Below, piece after piece: positions 52,554-60,153 of a stretch of DNA of 64,000 nucleotides (positions are counted from its first letter, which is position 1; each line of letters starts with the position of its first letter). The DNA is from Nocardioides sp. LHD-245 (GTDB lineage Bacteria > Actinomycetota > Actinomycetes > Propionibacteriales > Nocardioidaceae). The notes below the pieces were generated by a model, which was not told the DNA's origin, ran no database searches, and saw nothing but the letters and a program-made list of their open reading frames with translations. The translations under genes and the position numbers were made by a program. The stretch lies in assembly GCF_030929495.1 (NCBI RefSeq), contig NZ_JAVFWN010000013.1:62001-126000 (forward strand), written 5' to 3'.

Positions 52554-54587
52554 TCACAGCTCGAAGAACTGCGCGTCCTCCCCGGTCACCAGCACCACCC
52601 GCCCGTCGGGCAGGGGGACGGTCCGGACCCGGTCGACGTCGACGCCGTACTCCACCTGGACCCGGCGCTCGTGTAGCTCGCCGCCGGCGAGCTTGACGAC
52701 CGAGAGGTAGCCGACCCGGCGGCTGCCCTGCTTCTGGACGACGGTCAGCACCGTGCGCTGCTCGGGGAGCCAGGTGAACGCGCGGGGGTCGGCGCCGGCG
52801 AGGGCCTCGGTCCGCCGGCCGTAGCCGACGACGTCGAGGCGGGTCACCTTCGTGGTGTCGCGGACGTCGAAGAGCCCGATCTGGGCGCCCCAGCCGCCGC
52901 GTCCGCCGGGGCCCTGCGGCCCCTCGCCGACGCCGATCAGGCGGGCCCGGCCGAGCGGGTGGAGATAGGAGGAGAAGCCGGGGATCTTGAGCTCGCTGAG
53001 CAGGCGGGGGGCGGCGGTGTCGGTGAGGTCGACGGCGTAGAGCGGGTCGACCCGGCGGAAGGTCACCACGATCGCGAGGTCGTCGAACCAGCGCACCGAC
53101 TGGATCTCCTCGTTGCGCCCGAGCCCGTCGAGACGGCCGCGCTCGACCAGGTCCTGGCCCTGCCGATCGAGGGTCAGCACCGAGCTGAAGTTGCCGGTCT
53201 CGCTGGTGGGGCCCACGGCGACCCGGAGCACGCCGCCCGCCTCGTCCAGCGACCAGCGGTCGCGGATCGCGCCCTCCACCTCGCCCGAGGCGACATGGGT
53301 GGCCCGAGGGCCGTCCAGAGCGAAGTCGAAGAGGTACGACGACCCGCCATCCCCGCGCCCCGGCACGAACCGCGGCGTGCCGGTCGCCGGGGCGCCGCAC
53401 CACTCGAGGCAGCCCCAGCCGCCGCCCGCGGCGGCCAGGTAGAGGTGGTCGGCGGACTCGTAGGCGATGTCGGTCAGCCCGGCCAGCCCGATCGCGTCGA
53501 GGGTGCCGGCGTCGCCGGTGTCGAAGCCGATGACGCTGGTGGTGCCGAGGGCGAGGTCGTCGGAGGGGAGCGCGACGTCGCGGCAGTCGAGCAGCTGCCC
53601 CGCCTTGCCGTCATCCACGGCGACCGTCGGGAGCCAGTCCGCGAGAGTGCTGTCCTCGACGACCTGCCGGTTGTGCGTCAGCGCCTCATCGGGGCTGCGC
53701 TTGCCGGTGGGCTGCACGAAGTCGAGGTCGGGCAGGCCGTTGGCGAGGACCAGGCGGACGGTGTCGCCGTGCTGGCGCGCCGAGAACCGCGCGGCGTCGT
53801 ACCGGACGTCGTCGACGACCTCGGGCGCGGCCGGGTCGGCGAGTGACACGGTCAGCACCCGGGTGCCGCGGATCCCGGCCTTGCCGGTGGGTCCCTTCAC
53901 GTCGCCGATCGCGACCACCGTGTCGCCGGCCAGCAGGAGCTCGGGAGCGTCGATGCCGGGGAGGTCGAGCGAGGAGAGCTTGACGGTCGAGGAGCCGGTC
54001 ACGTCGTACACGTCGATCCGGTCATCCCGCTCGACGACCATCAGGCTGCCGTCGGTCTTGACGGTGTCCGGCTCGTCGACGCCGGCCTCCTGCACGTTGG
54101 TGCCGGTCTCGCTGTTCGTCTGCCGCTCGGCCTGCGGGGCGGAGGCGGCCGTGCCGGTCGCCCCGTCCGCCGGGATCAGGTCGTTCCGCTCCAACCGGTC
54201 GCTCATCACGCCTGAGCTCAGGCCCTCCGCATAGAGCCCCATGCCGCCGCCCCAGCCCCACGGCCCGACGACGTCCAGCCCACGCCGGACGTACGACGCC
54301 AGCAGGTCGTCGCACGACGCCGCCGCCTCCAGGTCGGCCTGGAAGGCGACGTGGCGCGGCAGCCGGTCGGGCCCGGCCGGGCCGGCGCCTGGTCCGGCGC
54401 CGGGGCCGCCGGCCAGGCTGCCGGCGACGAACGCGCCGGCCAGGGCGGTCGCGGCGCCCGCGGTCAGCACGGGCCGGAGGACGAGCCGGCGACGCCGGCG
54501 GCGCTCCTTCGCGGTCGCGGCGAGGATCGCGCCGACCGGTGCCGGGTCGGTGGGGTAGTCGTCCCAGAGGTTCTCGAGGTCGGTCAT
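52554..54587 (-). CDS. Membrane-anchored beta-propeller protein (Beta_propel family)
   Basis: 677 residues. A cytoplasmic N-terminus of about 40 residues (ENLWDDYPTDPAPVGAILAATAKERRRRRR) is followed by one membrane helix (VLTAGAATALAGAFVAGSL) and then an extracellular domain of about 600 residues with Beta_propel features: TNVQEAGVDEPDTVKTDGSLMVV, RFSARQHGDTVRLVL, YLHPLGRARLIGVGEG. The closely packed Cys residues (WGCLEWCG) and the AGVDEPD(I/T)VKTDG motif are family hallmarks. The start overlaps the sigma factor stop (ATGA, 54584-54587), so it may sense an outside signal and restrain the sigma factor, though no classic anti-sigma zinc motif is seen. Confidence 0.83.
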   Translation of the reverse strand: MTDLENLWDDYPTDPAPVGAILAATAKERRRRRRLVLRPVLTAGAATALAGAFVAGSLAGGPGAGPGAGPAGPDRLPRHVAFQADLEAAASCDDLLASYVRRGLDVVGPWGWGGGMGLYAEGLSSGVMSDRLERNDLIPADGATGTAASAPQAERQTNSETGTNVQEAGVDEPDTVKTDGSLMVVERDDRIDVYDVTGSSTVKLSSLDLPGIDAPELLLAGDTVVAIGDVKGPTGKAGIRGTRVLTVSLADPAAPEVVDDVRYDAARFSARQHGDTVRLVLANGLPDLDFVQPTGKRSPDEALTHNRQVVEDSTLADWLPTVAVDDGKAGQLLDCRDVALPSDDLALGTTSVIGFDTGDAGTLDAIGLAGLTDIAYESADHLYLAAAGGGWGCLEWCGAPATGTPRFVPGRGDGGSSYLFDFALDGPRATHVASGEVEGAIRDRWSLDEAGGVLRVAVGPTSETGNFSSVLTLDRQGQDLVERGRLDGLGRNEEIQSVRWFDDLAIVVTFRRVDPLYAVDLTDTAAPRLLSELKIPGFSSYLHPLGRARLIGVGEGPQGPGGRGGWGAQIGLFDVRDTTKVTRLDVVGYGRRTEALAGADPRAFTWLPEQRTVLTVVQKQGSRRVGYLSVVKLAGGELHERRVQVEYGVDVDRVRTVPLPDGRVVLVTGEDAQFFEL

Positions 54588-55117
54588 GACGGTCTCCGTC
54601 CGGTGAGGTCGAGCAGGTGGTCGTCGGCGGCGAGGTGGGCCAGCGCGCGGGAGAGCCGGCTCTTCACCGTCCCGGCCGGGATGCCGAGGGCCTCGGCGGT
54701 CTGGCGTTCGGTGAGCTGCACGAAGTACCGCAGCACCACGACCTCCCGGTTGGGCTTGGTCAGAGCGCCCAGCGCGCGGTGGACGGCGTCGGCCAGTGCC
54801 ACCCGGTCCGCCGTGTCGGGCTCCGCCGTCCGCGGCCCGTCGACCGGGGCGTCGTACTGCCGGTCCTTCCACCACCGGGTGCGGCGGCTGTCGCGCAGGC
54901 AGTTGACCAGCATCCGGTAGACGTACGCGTCGCGGTTCTCCGCGCTGCTGACCCGGCTCCAGCCGGTGTAGCAGCGAACCAGTGTCGTCTGCGCCAGGTC
55001 CTCCGCCTCGTGCGGCCGGGCGCCGAGGAAGACGGCGGCACGGACCAGGCTCGGCCAGCTCTGCTGGACGTAGTCGGCGTACGCCGACTGGTGATCGGCC
55101 TCGGTGTCGGGTTCCAC
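54584..55117 (-). CDS. SigE-family ECF RNA polymerase sigma factor
   Basis: 177 residues from GTG 55117, with GAGGAG 5 nt upstream. Region 2 is DYVQQSWPSLVRAAVFLGARPHEAEDLAQTTLVRCYTGW, region 4 LTKPNREVVVLRYFVQLTERQTAEALGIPAGTVKSRLSRALAHLA. The YVQQSW-PHEAEDLAQ-TVKSRLSR combination is typical of the streptomycete SigE family. It would direct polymerase to a small regulon, probably including its own operon with the beta-propeller partner. Confidence 0.92.
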   Translation of the reverse strand: MEPDTEADHQSAYADYVQQSWPSLVRAAVFLGARPHEAEDLAQTTLVRCYTGWSRVSSAENRDAYVYRMLVNCLRDSRRTRWWKDRQYDAPVDGPRTAEPDTADRVALADAVHRALGALTKPNREVVVLRYFVQLTERQTAEALGIPAGTVKSRLSRALAHLAADDHLLDLTGRRPS

Positions 55118-58331: not shown

Positions 58332-58446
58332 CGCTGTAACACGTTGTCCACCTGACTGGGCGTCACATCTCAGCAGAAAGTGGCCGCTGAGCGGCCTGAA
58401 TCTGCTGACAGCCGACGGGTAGTCGGGTGGACGGCGTGTTACAGCG
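58332..58446. terminator. Three-tier nested hairpin between tadG-like and fused sigma genes
   Basis: Outer arms 58332-58357 and 58421-58446 pair over 26 bp with three non-Watson-Crick positions. In the + strand RNA all three are G-U pairs, so the stem is unbroken; in the - strand RNA they are A-C mismatches. Inside lie TCAGCAGA/TCTGCTGA (58370-58377, 58401-58408) and GGCCGC-TGA-GCGGCC (58382-58396). The structure favours terminating the + transcript of the TadG-like gene. Confidence 0.7.
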
Positions 58447-58452
58447 GAGCGC

Positions 58453-60141
58453 TCAGCCGGGGCAGGGGTCGACGTCGAAGCTCGTGGAGCGGGTCGCGGT
58501 CTGCCCGGCCTTGTCGACGGCGGTGACCGTGGCCGTCACGGTGCCGCCGACGGGGAAGGGCCCGATGGTGGCGGTCCAGGAACCGCCGGAGGCCGTCATC
58601 GGCTCCTGCCCGGTGCCGCTGGGGCCCGACCAGGCGACCCGCACCGACTGCACGCCGGAGGCGTCGGCGACGGTCGTGGTCAGGCTCCGTCCGGAGCAGT
58701 CGGTGGGGCCGCCGACGGAGATCCCGCCGATGACGGGCGGCCGGTCGACGACGACCTGGACCTGCAGGACGACGGTGCCGCCGGACCAGGAGACGGCGAC
58801 CGTGCCGGTGCTGCTGCCCTCGCCGAGGCTCGACCGGTCGGCGGTGATGGTCAGGCCCGCGTCGGCGCCGGCAGCCAGCGACCCGGCTCCCCGGGAGACC
58901 GACAGCCAGGCCACCCGCGGTTTGACGGTGTAGTCCAGGGCGCTGCCGCCGGCGTTGCTCAGTCGCACGGTGCCGGCGGACTTCGTGCCGAGCCGGAGGG
59001 TGCGGGTCGAGACGCGCAGGTCGCCCGGCGCGGTGACGGTCGTCTCGGTCGTGGGCGTCGACGTCGGGGAGGCCGGCGCACTCGGCGTGGGGGGCGCCGG
59101 CTCGGTGGGCGTCGTCGCGGGAGCCGGGGCGGTGGCGGCCGGGGCCGTTGCCGTGGGTGCCGGGCTGTCGGTCACCGGGTCGGTGGCCACCGCGGGCGCG
59201 GTGTCCTCGGGCCACCAGGTGAGGACGGCGGCGCCGCCGAGAGCCAGCAGCAGCACGACCAGGCCGACGAGGAGCAGCGGGCGCTTCGACGTACCGCCGC
59301 CGGGGGCGGGAGGCGGCAGCGCCGGGTCGTCGGCGTAGTAGGCCACCAGCCTCTCGTCGTCGAGCACCCGGTCGCGGAGCGCGGCAGGAGCGGCGAAGGC
59401 GGGTACGCCGGCGAGCAGGGCGAGCGGGCTGACCATGAGCCGGCGCCGGGTCTCGCAGGTCTCGCAGCCGTCGATGTGCCGTGCGACCCGCTTGCGGATC
59501 AGCGGTGAGAACCGGCCGTCCCAGTCGCCGAGGATCGCGGACAGCTCGCCGCACAGCTCGCTGCCGCGGCGGGCGACGAGGAGGGCGCCGAGCGACCGCT
59601 CGACCTGGTCGCGAGCCCGGCTGAGCATGACGTAGGAGTTCTGGGTGGTCACGTCCATCGCCGCGGCCAGCTCGGCGCCGTCGAGACCCTGGCGCAGGTG
59701 CAGGTCGAGGAGCGCGCGGTCGCGGTCGTTGAGGCCCTCGATCGCCGCCCAGACCAGCTCGCGCAGCTCGTCCCGGCCGGCCGCGTCGGCGACCTGCTGC
59801 TCGGGGCCGCTGCCCTGGTCAGGCATCGCCTCGAGCCATTCGTCGTCGTGTGCCTCGCGTGCCCGCCCGCGCAGCGTCCGCAGGCACTCGTTGCGCACGA
59901 CCGCGTACAGCCAGGGCCGCAGTCGCGCCGGGTCCCGCAGCTGGCCGACCTTCTCCGCCATCACCACGAAGGCGTCCGCGACGCAGTCCGCCGCCTCCTC
60001 CCGGTTGCGGAGCATCGAGTACGCGAAGTCGTGCAGGCGGTCGGCGTACCGCTCGTAGACCCCCGCGAACGCCTGACGGTCGCCGGCGAGGACGCCCGCG
60101 ACGAGGGTCGCGTCGTCGGCGGGCGGGCCCGAGGCTGTCAT
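58453..60141 (-). CDS. ECF sigma factor fused to zinc-finger, membrane and extracellular domains
   Basis: 562 residues. Residues 1-190 are an ECF sigma factor: region 2 FAGVYERYADRLHDFAYSMLRNREEAADCVADAFVVMAEKVGQL and region 4 LNDRDRALLDLHLRQGLDGAELAAAMDVTTQNSYVMLSRARDQVE. Residues about 190-240 hold an anti-sigma-like zinc finger, HIDGCETC (HxxxCxxC). One membrane helix follows (RPLLLVGLVVLLLALGGAAVLTWW, about 288-311), then a Pro/Thr/Ala linker (315-370) and two outside beta domains (BACON/Ig-like, LRLGTKSAGTVRLSNAGGSALDYTV and VDRPPVIGGISVGG...). The sigma factor therefore seems tethered to the membrane with its own sensor. TACGAT lies 6 nt before the ATG. Confidence 0.85.
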   Translation of the reverse strand: MTASGPPADDATLVAGVLAGDRQAFAGVYERYADRLHDFAYSMLRNREEAADCVADAFVVMAEKVGQLRDPARLRPWLYAVVRNECLRTLRGRAREAHDDEWLEAMPDQGSGPEQQVADAAGRDELRELVWAAIEGLNDRDRALLDLHLRQGLDGAELAAAMDVTTQNSYVMLSRARDQVERSLGALLVARRGSELCGELSAILGDWDGRFSPLIRKRVARHIDGCETCETRRRLMVSPLALLAGVPAFAAPAALRDRVLDDERLVAYYADDPALPPPAPGGGTSKRPLLLVGLVVLLLALGGAAVLTWWPEDTAPAVATDPVTDSPAPTATAPAATAPAPATTPTEPAPPTPSAPASPTSTPTTETTVTAPGDLRVSTRTLRLGTKSAGTVRLSNAGGSALDYTVKPRVAWLSVSRGAGSLAAGADAGLTITADRSSLGEGSSTGTVAVSWSGGTVVLQVQVVVDRPPVIGGISVGGPTDCSGRSLTTTVADASGVQSVRVAWSGPSGTGQEPMTASGGSWTATIGPFPVGGTVTATVTAVDKAGQTATRSTSFDVDPCPG

Positions 60142-60147
60142 GGCGTG

Positions 60148-60153
60148 ATCGTA
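60148..60153 (-). promoter_or_regulatory. Probable leaderless -10 hexamer TACGAT
   Basis: On the - strand TACGAT ends 6 nt before the ATG of the fused sigma gene (60141), a near-consensus leaderless promoter. Confidence 0.5.

Follow-up and report, generated by a model that had tools for sequence, protein, structure and literature searches.

How does a sigma factor that is built into a membrane-spanning protein reach the DNA, and does the protein differ from the sigma fusions already described? The question is raised by a gene on the minus strand of the window, the stretch of 64,000 nucleotides of Nocardioides sp. LHD-245 analysed here, in which positions 58453-60141 encode 562 residues in one frame. 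An earlier note, made from the sequence letters, had read this protein as a fused ECF sigma factor with a zinc anti-sigma type motif, and had placed in order sigma regions 2 and 4, the zinc motif, one membrane helix, a Pro/Thr linker and two beta domains. The list of open reading frames and the translation agree with the coordinates, strand and frame given there, and the domain order is recovered by Pfam, hydropathy and AlphaFold, as follows.

58453..60141, minus strand: whole gene, fused ECF sigma factor, zinc anti-sigma domain, membrane helix and outside sensor, 562 residues (open reading frame, Pfam, alignment)
59842..60084, minus strand: sigma region 2, residues about 20-100 (Pfam Sigma70_r2)
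59584..59760, minus strand: sigma region 4, residues 128-186 (Pfam Sigma70_r4_2)
59347..59568, minus strand: zinc anti-sigma domain, residues 192-265 (motif, zf-HC2 below cut-off; candidate ligands C197, H222, C226 and C229)
59218..59283, minus strand: predicted single membrane helix, residues about 287-308 (hydropathy; Lys/Arg before it, none in 312-373)
59023..59208, minus strand: Pro/Thr/Ala linker, residues 312-373 (composition; pLDDT <50 for 300-370)
58744..59022, minus strand: BACON-like beta domain, residues 374-466 (BACON_2 over cut-off; pLDDT 81-93 in blocks of ten)
58456..58743, minus strand: Ig-like beta domain, residues 467-562 (Big_13 under cut-off; pLDDT mostly 83-94 by blocks)

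The N-terminal part contains sigma regions 2 and 4 only, which is the layout of ECF (group 4) sigma factors. Sigma70_r2 at residues 29-95 (E 7e-13) and Sigma70_r4_2 at residues 128-178 (E 5e-6, 26.6 bits versus a cut-off of 25.7) both exceed their Pfam cut-offs, as the earlier note had expected of a profile search, and the sigma70-ECF model TIGR02937 scores 79.2 bits versus a cut-off of 42.9. The zinc motif has the layout C197-x24-H222-x3-C226-x2-C229 (C197-x24-HIDGCETC), and helices are placed at 197-205, 213-222, 227-235, 239-244, 253-260 and 263-269 in a low-confidence AlphaFold model, so that an Hx3Cx2C motif lies in a short helical domain. The further cysteine upstream of this motif is presumably as in RsrA. 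In the class I zinc anti-sigma factors RsiW and ChrR, Hx3Cx2C likewise extends over helices 2 and 3 (PMC7406223), but these are separate proteins, whereas here the zinc domain is in one chain with the sigma factor. The same profile search had been expected to find zf-HC2 and Ig folds. On this point the expectation held in part: zf-HC2 at 208-229 (E 0.0015, 19.0 bits versus 22.2) and Big_13 at 492-558 (E 3e-5, 24.8 bits versus 27) both stay below their curated Pfam cut-offs, whereas the motif supports the zinc domain and the model the beta fold. Together, the sigma profiles and the C-HxxxCxxC motif bear out the reading as a fused ECF sigma factor of the zinc anti-sigma type.

There is one strongly hydrophobic helix in the protein, with the best 19-residue window at 289-307 (mean hydropathy 2.91). 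A second membrane helix at 235-253 (1.74), which if real would turn the beta domains inward, was set aside since this stretch lies inside the anti-sigma domain and is below the 1.7 threshold in many relatives. Three Lys/Arg residues are found in the 25 residues before the helix and none in the 25 after it; the sequence leading up to it ends in SKRP and residues 312-373 are free of Lys and Arg, which places the sensor outside in the predicted one-helix topology. A wider, partly redundant list of 84 proteins has more Lys/Arg before the helix than after it in 68, equal numbers in 8 and fewer in 8, the last mostly from the clade with NPCBM domains (a list of 86 included truncated duplicates and one plain CAP protein). 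Beyond the linker, BACON_2 matches residues 376-462 over its cut-off (E 9e-8, 32.4 bits versus 25). Confidence in the full-length AlphaFold model is confined to the two C-terminal domains, which are nearly all beta; it includes, at high pLDDT, the beta fold of the Ig-like domain, whose C482 and C560 are invariant in 11 of 11 sequences of the close-relative alignment. Foldseek with the full-length model gave no functional lead among its top matches, which are diverse beta-domain proteins (a serine peptidase fibril, RbmA, GH115 enzymes, adhesins, pilus chaperones and ciliary proteins).

Fused ECF sigma factors are known in actinobacteria, as the earlier note had stated. ECF48, ECF52 and ECF53 are described as actinobacterial fusions with a zinc finger and membrane helices, for which proteolysis is expected (PMC8999054), and the ECF52 member SCO4117 has been characterised in Streptomyces coelicolor, with proteolytic release discussed (PMC5826349). 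For IutY of Pseudomonas putida (ECF243), presented in PMC8999054 as the only experimentally characterised case, proteolytic release was shown experimentally. The statement in the earlier note that the route of a tethered sigma factor to DNA is poorly understood was thus too strong, given that proteolytic release is the published expectation and was shown for IutY (PMC8999054). With these systems on record (PMC8999054, PMC5826349), this kind of protein counts as known, and the fused layout is not new to Actinobacteria.

It is mainly the make-up of the outside sensor that is unusual. By the accounts in these papers, the window protein resembles ECF48 and ECF53, which are actinobacterial ECF factors with a fused zinc finger and one or two membrane helices, the ECF48 example named being mycobacterial (PMC8999054). 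It resembles IutY in the fusion of sigma to a membrane-bound anti-sigma part, but IutY, which is released by proteolysis, belongs to a siderophore-sensing system of a Gram-negative (PMC8999054). SCO4117 has the same order of sigma, zinc finger, membrane helix, Pro-rich stretch and outside domain, but its outside domain is the carbohydrate-binding module smart00776 (PMC5826349), which the window protein lacks. Other work cited in PMC10766802 predicts that ECF52 and ECF53 proteins carry glycosyl hydrolase and carbohydrate-binding domains. In agreement with this difference, the NPCBM outside domain PF08305, by which ECF52 would be recognised, was not found in the window protein at E values up to 1 (Pfam). 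A literature search judged by titles and abstract openings turned up no description of a sigma factor that carries a BACON/Ig sensor, and the presence of such a sensor here raises the question of what BACON domains of this kind sense.

We think it likely that the protein is a sigma/anti-sigma pair in a single chain, in which the zinc domain acts as the lock and a signal from the envelope triggers release through intramembrane proteolysis. The cytoplasmic zinc anti-sigma domain (192-265) would keep its own sigma regions 2 and 4 inactive by the inner membrane face; the one helix would take the chain outward, where the disordered Pro/Thr stalk would display the BACON-like and Ig-like domains to the envelope. 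Once these domains sense a signal, a site-1 protease would gain access to the stalk, the helix would then be cleaved by a membrane metalloprotease, the zinc domain would be degraded or detached, and the freed sigma could guide RNA polymerase to its regulon. Inhibition in cis, cleavage, the signal and the regulon are what we infer for this protein from the anatomy and from the published fusions.

Several observations bear on this proposal. Two M50 protease loci (G000:C6:208504-209673 and G000:C14:56207-56635) score over the cut-off in the same genome, which supports the cleavage step weakly, as the family is also found in all 14 control genomes. On the opposing side, an allele of SCO4117 encoding the sigma part only still gave some developmental delay, less than the deletion, though its authors read this as supporting release (PMC5826349). 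With the cytoplasmic model, the best PDB matches in Foldseek are the sigma chains of the SigE-RseA, SigW-RsiW and AlgU-MucA complexes (TM about 0.2-0.3 over the query). Docking of the zinc domain on sigma is not seen in the AlphaFold model of residues 1-272, built with 11 close sequences, owing to a pTM of 0.37 and a pLDDT <50 from residue 235 on. Between the zinc domain and the helix lie about 20 Pro/Gly-rich residues (266-286), modelled at low confidence, and these would also suit a sigma factor that works while attached to the membrane, with the signal altering the grip of the zinc domain through the helix and without proteolysis. We regard this as unlikely, since IutY, said to be the one experimentally characterised fusion, is released by proteolysis (PMC8999054). 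Having sigma and brake in one chain means that dissociation alone would leave sigma tied to the membrane, and such proteins are therefore clean test cases for the need to cut a membrane-bound transcription factor.

The layout recurs in close relatives. Collinear proteins were found at ten loci in named records (eight from Nocardioides, one from Pimelobacter and one from a Propionibacteriales MAG), 62-83% identical over the alignment. In the genus sample, where nine candidates were scored per genome and some hits are the same assemblies as the named records, a match with an E value of 1e-20 or better is present in 18 of 147, including the genome of the window itself. Fourteen of these 18 match over the whole model; G076 matches from position 3, G109 up to position 473, and G100 and G131 in two pieces each, those of G131 on two small contigs. 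The family-wide sample gave matches in 2 of 21 genomes, both from the same genus and one of them the source genome, and the class-wide sample added a BACON relative (locus L048) from G407, a genome that belongs to a different genus within the family. The tetrad C197/H222/C226/C229 is invariant in 11 of 11 close relatives. For nine of the ten relatives, in which the match is split in two, residues 1-266 are 80-95% identical versus 45-81% for residues 373-562; L010, the remaining one, gave a single unbroken alignment, at 76%. Such a contrast would follow from an adapting sensor on an inner module that stays fixed.

The genome of the window holds one full-length copy, and its remaining matches to the window protein cover the sigma part. 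The wider model also picked up L122 (G000:C4:161783-163087), a second, diverged fused ECF protein of 499 residues with zf-HC2 over the cut-off (E 3e-9) and without a recognised outside domain, as well as a weak match at G000:C5:93388-94992. Among viral contigs scanned with a 53-row alignment, 10 stretches matched a pattern and none was a relative.

When residues 1-311 were used as a model for the wider class, 131 of 296 genomes had some match at 1e-12. Judged by their spans, the strongest of the matches listed extend beyond sigma to include the zinc domain within a single open frame; many of the weaker ones are confined to sigma. Strong loci were extracted, and others were added from their position and from a second search, which covered nine genomes. 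Across 53 aligned full-length proteins (22% mean column identity), only W77, L78, L147, C197, H222, C226 and C229 are invariant, the zinc tetrad thus making up four of the seven columns. The outside domains found among these 53 by Pfam at 0.001 are BACON_2 in 9, CAP in 7 and AbfB in 2, and L119, L120 and L123 carry the NPCBM domain PF08305. By their alignments and domain matches, related proteins keep the inner module and vary the outside part. Two genomes of family code f5 each carry a tandem pair of fused sigma-zinc-helix genes, L091 and L092 among them.

A tree was built from the sigma and zinc columns (78 rows, 232 columns) after four free sigma rows had been dropped, two being gappy, one long and one a duplicate; long branches were flagged, including L122 and free sigma rows. 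Clade A (50 rows, 99/97) holds the window protein and, among others, the f5 proteins L052, L056-L058 and L090-L092, clade B (16 rows, 100/100) the CAP and AbfB proteins, and clade C (7 rows, 100/99) the NPCBM proteins together with L122 on its long branch; A and B form one side of a branch (95/88). Clade C may be called SCO4117-like on the strength of the domains of SCO4117 as described in PMC5826349. A tree with A and C forced together is worse by 11.1 lnL (p-AU 0.058, just short of rejection), and one that unites all the fusions is not rejected either (p-AU 0.179), both for groups named after the tree had been seen. By its outside domain the window protein does not match ECF52, and the NPCBM proteins fall in another clade, although the test narrowly allows a clade shared with them. 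The window protein may belong to ECF48, to ECF53 or to a group without a number. The window protein thus appears, as judged by domain searches and tree position, to differ from the known fusions in its sensor and to stand off the NPCBM proteins.

The conservation of the zinc motif could also be read in another way, with the zinc domain sensing thiol stress in the cytoplasm, in the manner of ChrR or RsrA, while the part outside would serve as a wall anchor only. The complete Cys/His/Cys/Cys set in 72 of 73 fused tree rows (the 73rd, L073, has one extra residue inside it) and the lower conservation of the outside part are what this would predict, and three f5 proteins, L052, L058 and L092, have no outside domain that Pfam finds, the tails of L052 and L058 being Pro-rich. 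Yet zinc motifs of membrane-bound anti-sigma domains may be structural only (PMC7406223), and the sister clade carries recognisable modules outside (CAP, AbfB), which suggests a role for that part. We therefore give this reading little credence, about as much as the attached sigma factor, and keep to an envelope signal acting through the outside domains.

A model of the BACON region of the window family also matches L089, L110, L111 and L114-L118. Apart from L089, these occur one each in seven of the eight other genomes of the second search, and all eight proteins have an HxxxCxxC zinc motif, a helix and a BACON region. The N-terminal part of the seven (L110, L111, L114-L118) is homologous to the window sigma part (E 3e-15 to 5e-22), but neither L110 nor L118, the two scanned with Pfam, has a sigma domain at E 0.01, and the L110 group has a branch 1.7 long in the tree. 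The eight proteins are possibly pseudo-sigma factors. That the sigma part of the window protein is itself degenerate, so that the protein would serve at the membrane as a decoy or in a structural role, as may hold for those seven, is very improbable: its region 4 barely passes the Pfam cut-off, but region 2 is strong, TIGR02937 scores well over its cut-off and few segments of the protein are as conserved as the sigma part. A broader possibility, to which we lend only tentative weight, is that all these proteins belong to a widespread and perhaps single-origin actinobacterial superfamily with a fixed sigma-zinc-helix module and exchangeable outside modules (BACON/Ig, CAP, AbfB, NPCBM or bare proline-rich tails), and that the branch of L110, L111 and L114-L118 kept the zinc motif, helix and BACON domain while its sigma part decayed, leaving a non-sigma membrane protein of other use.

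Finally, the idea that the fusion is an artefact, two genes joined by misassembly or by the frameshift or sequencing error of which the earlier note had warned, can be dismissed, because third-position G+C (0.93-0.98) tops the other two positions, which vary with composition, in every one of eight segments that span the chain between sigma region 2 and the final domain, because the full-length architecture recurs in the ten named records, and because the split match in G100, which might have hinted at such a join, is due to a run of N in that assembly. The one-chain layout is thus confirmed as real and conserved.

The start of the gene is marked by a conserved upstream element.

60148..60153, minus strand: probable -10 hexamer TACGAT, 6 nt before the ATG (conserved in upstream sequences)

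Of 19 upstream sequences, which are partly dependent (L016 and L030 have identical upstream DNA), 18 have TA[CG]GAT with its end exactly 6 bases ahead of the ATG, among them L048 from the other genus; the 19th, L041, has TAGGCT at this place. A -10 hexamer at this distance has its transcript begin on the ATG itself, which makes a leaderless mRNA and a correctly predicted start probable. In part of the relatives, a second conserved stretch, TGCAAGG ... GGCRCTCACA, lies upstream of TACGAT, parted from it in some species by an insert of tens of bases. Self-activation is common in ECF systems. It is not evident at the TACGAT site, as the conserved -10 looks housekeeping-like, and an autoregulatory ECF promoter was not adopted. 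Being compact, with a well defined start and with inner and outer halves that evolve at different rates, the Nocardioides family is suited to swap experiments.

No separate anti-sigma gene is adjacent, in agreement with the earlier note: the divergent neighbour encodes a biotin-carboxylase/acetyl-CoA-carboxylase-like protein and the convergent one a protein with a sub-cut-off Tad match (Pfam). All ten relatives have a saccharopine-dehydrogenase-like gene in their 5-kb flanks, where four also have the carboxylase and three the Tad-like gene. Elsewhere in the window, at 52554-55117 on the minus strand, a SigE-family ECF gene (54584-55117; TIGR02983 141.7 bits versus a cut-off of 141.55) precedes a gene whose product has a Beta_propel domain (PF09826, E 2e-91) and, judged by eye, an apparent membrane helix; the two are perhaps a sigma factor and membrane-sensor pair. 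Between the fusion gene and its convergent neighbour, window positions 58332-58446 form an imperfect palindrome of 115 bases, with 57-nt arms that are 75% complementary. A DNA search of the same genome gave 25 matches to it at 15 places on 8 contigs, itself included, the other copies being 69-93% identical to part or most of the sequence; it is a dispersed palindromic repeat, MITE- or REP-like.
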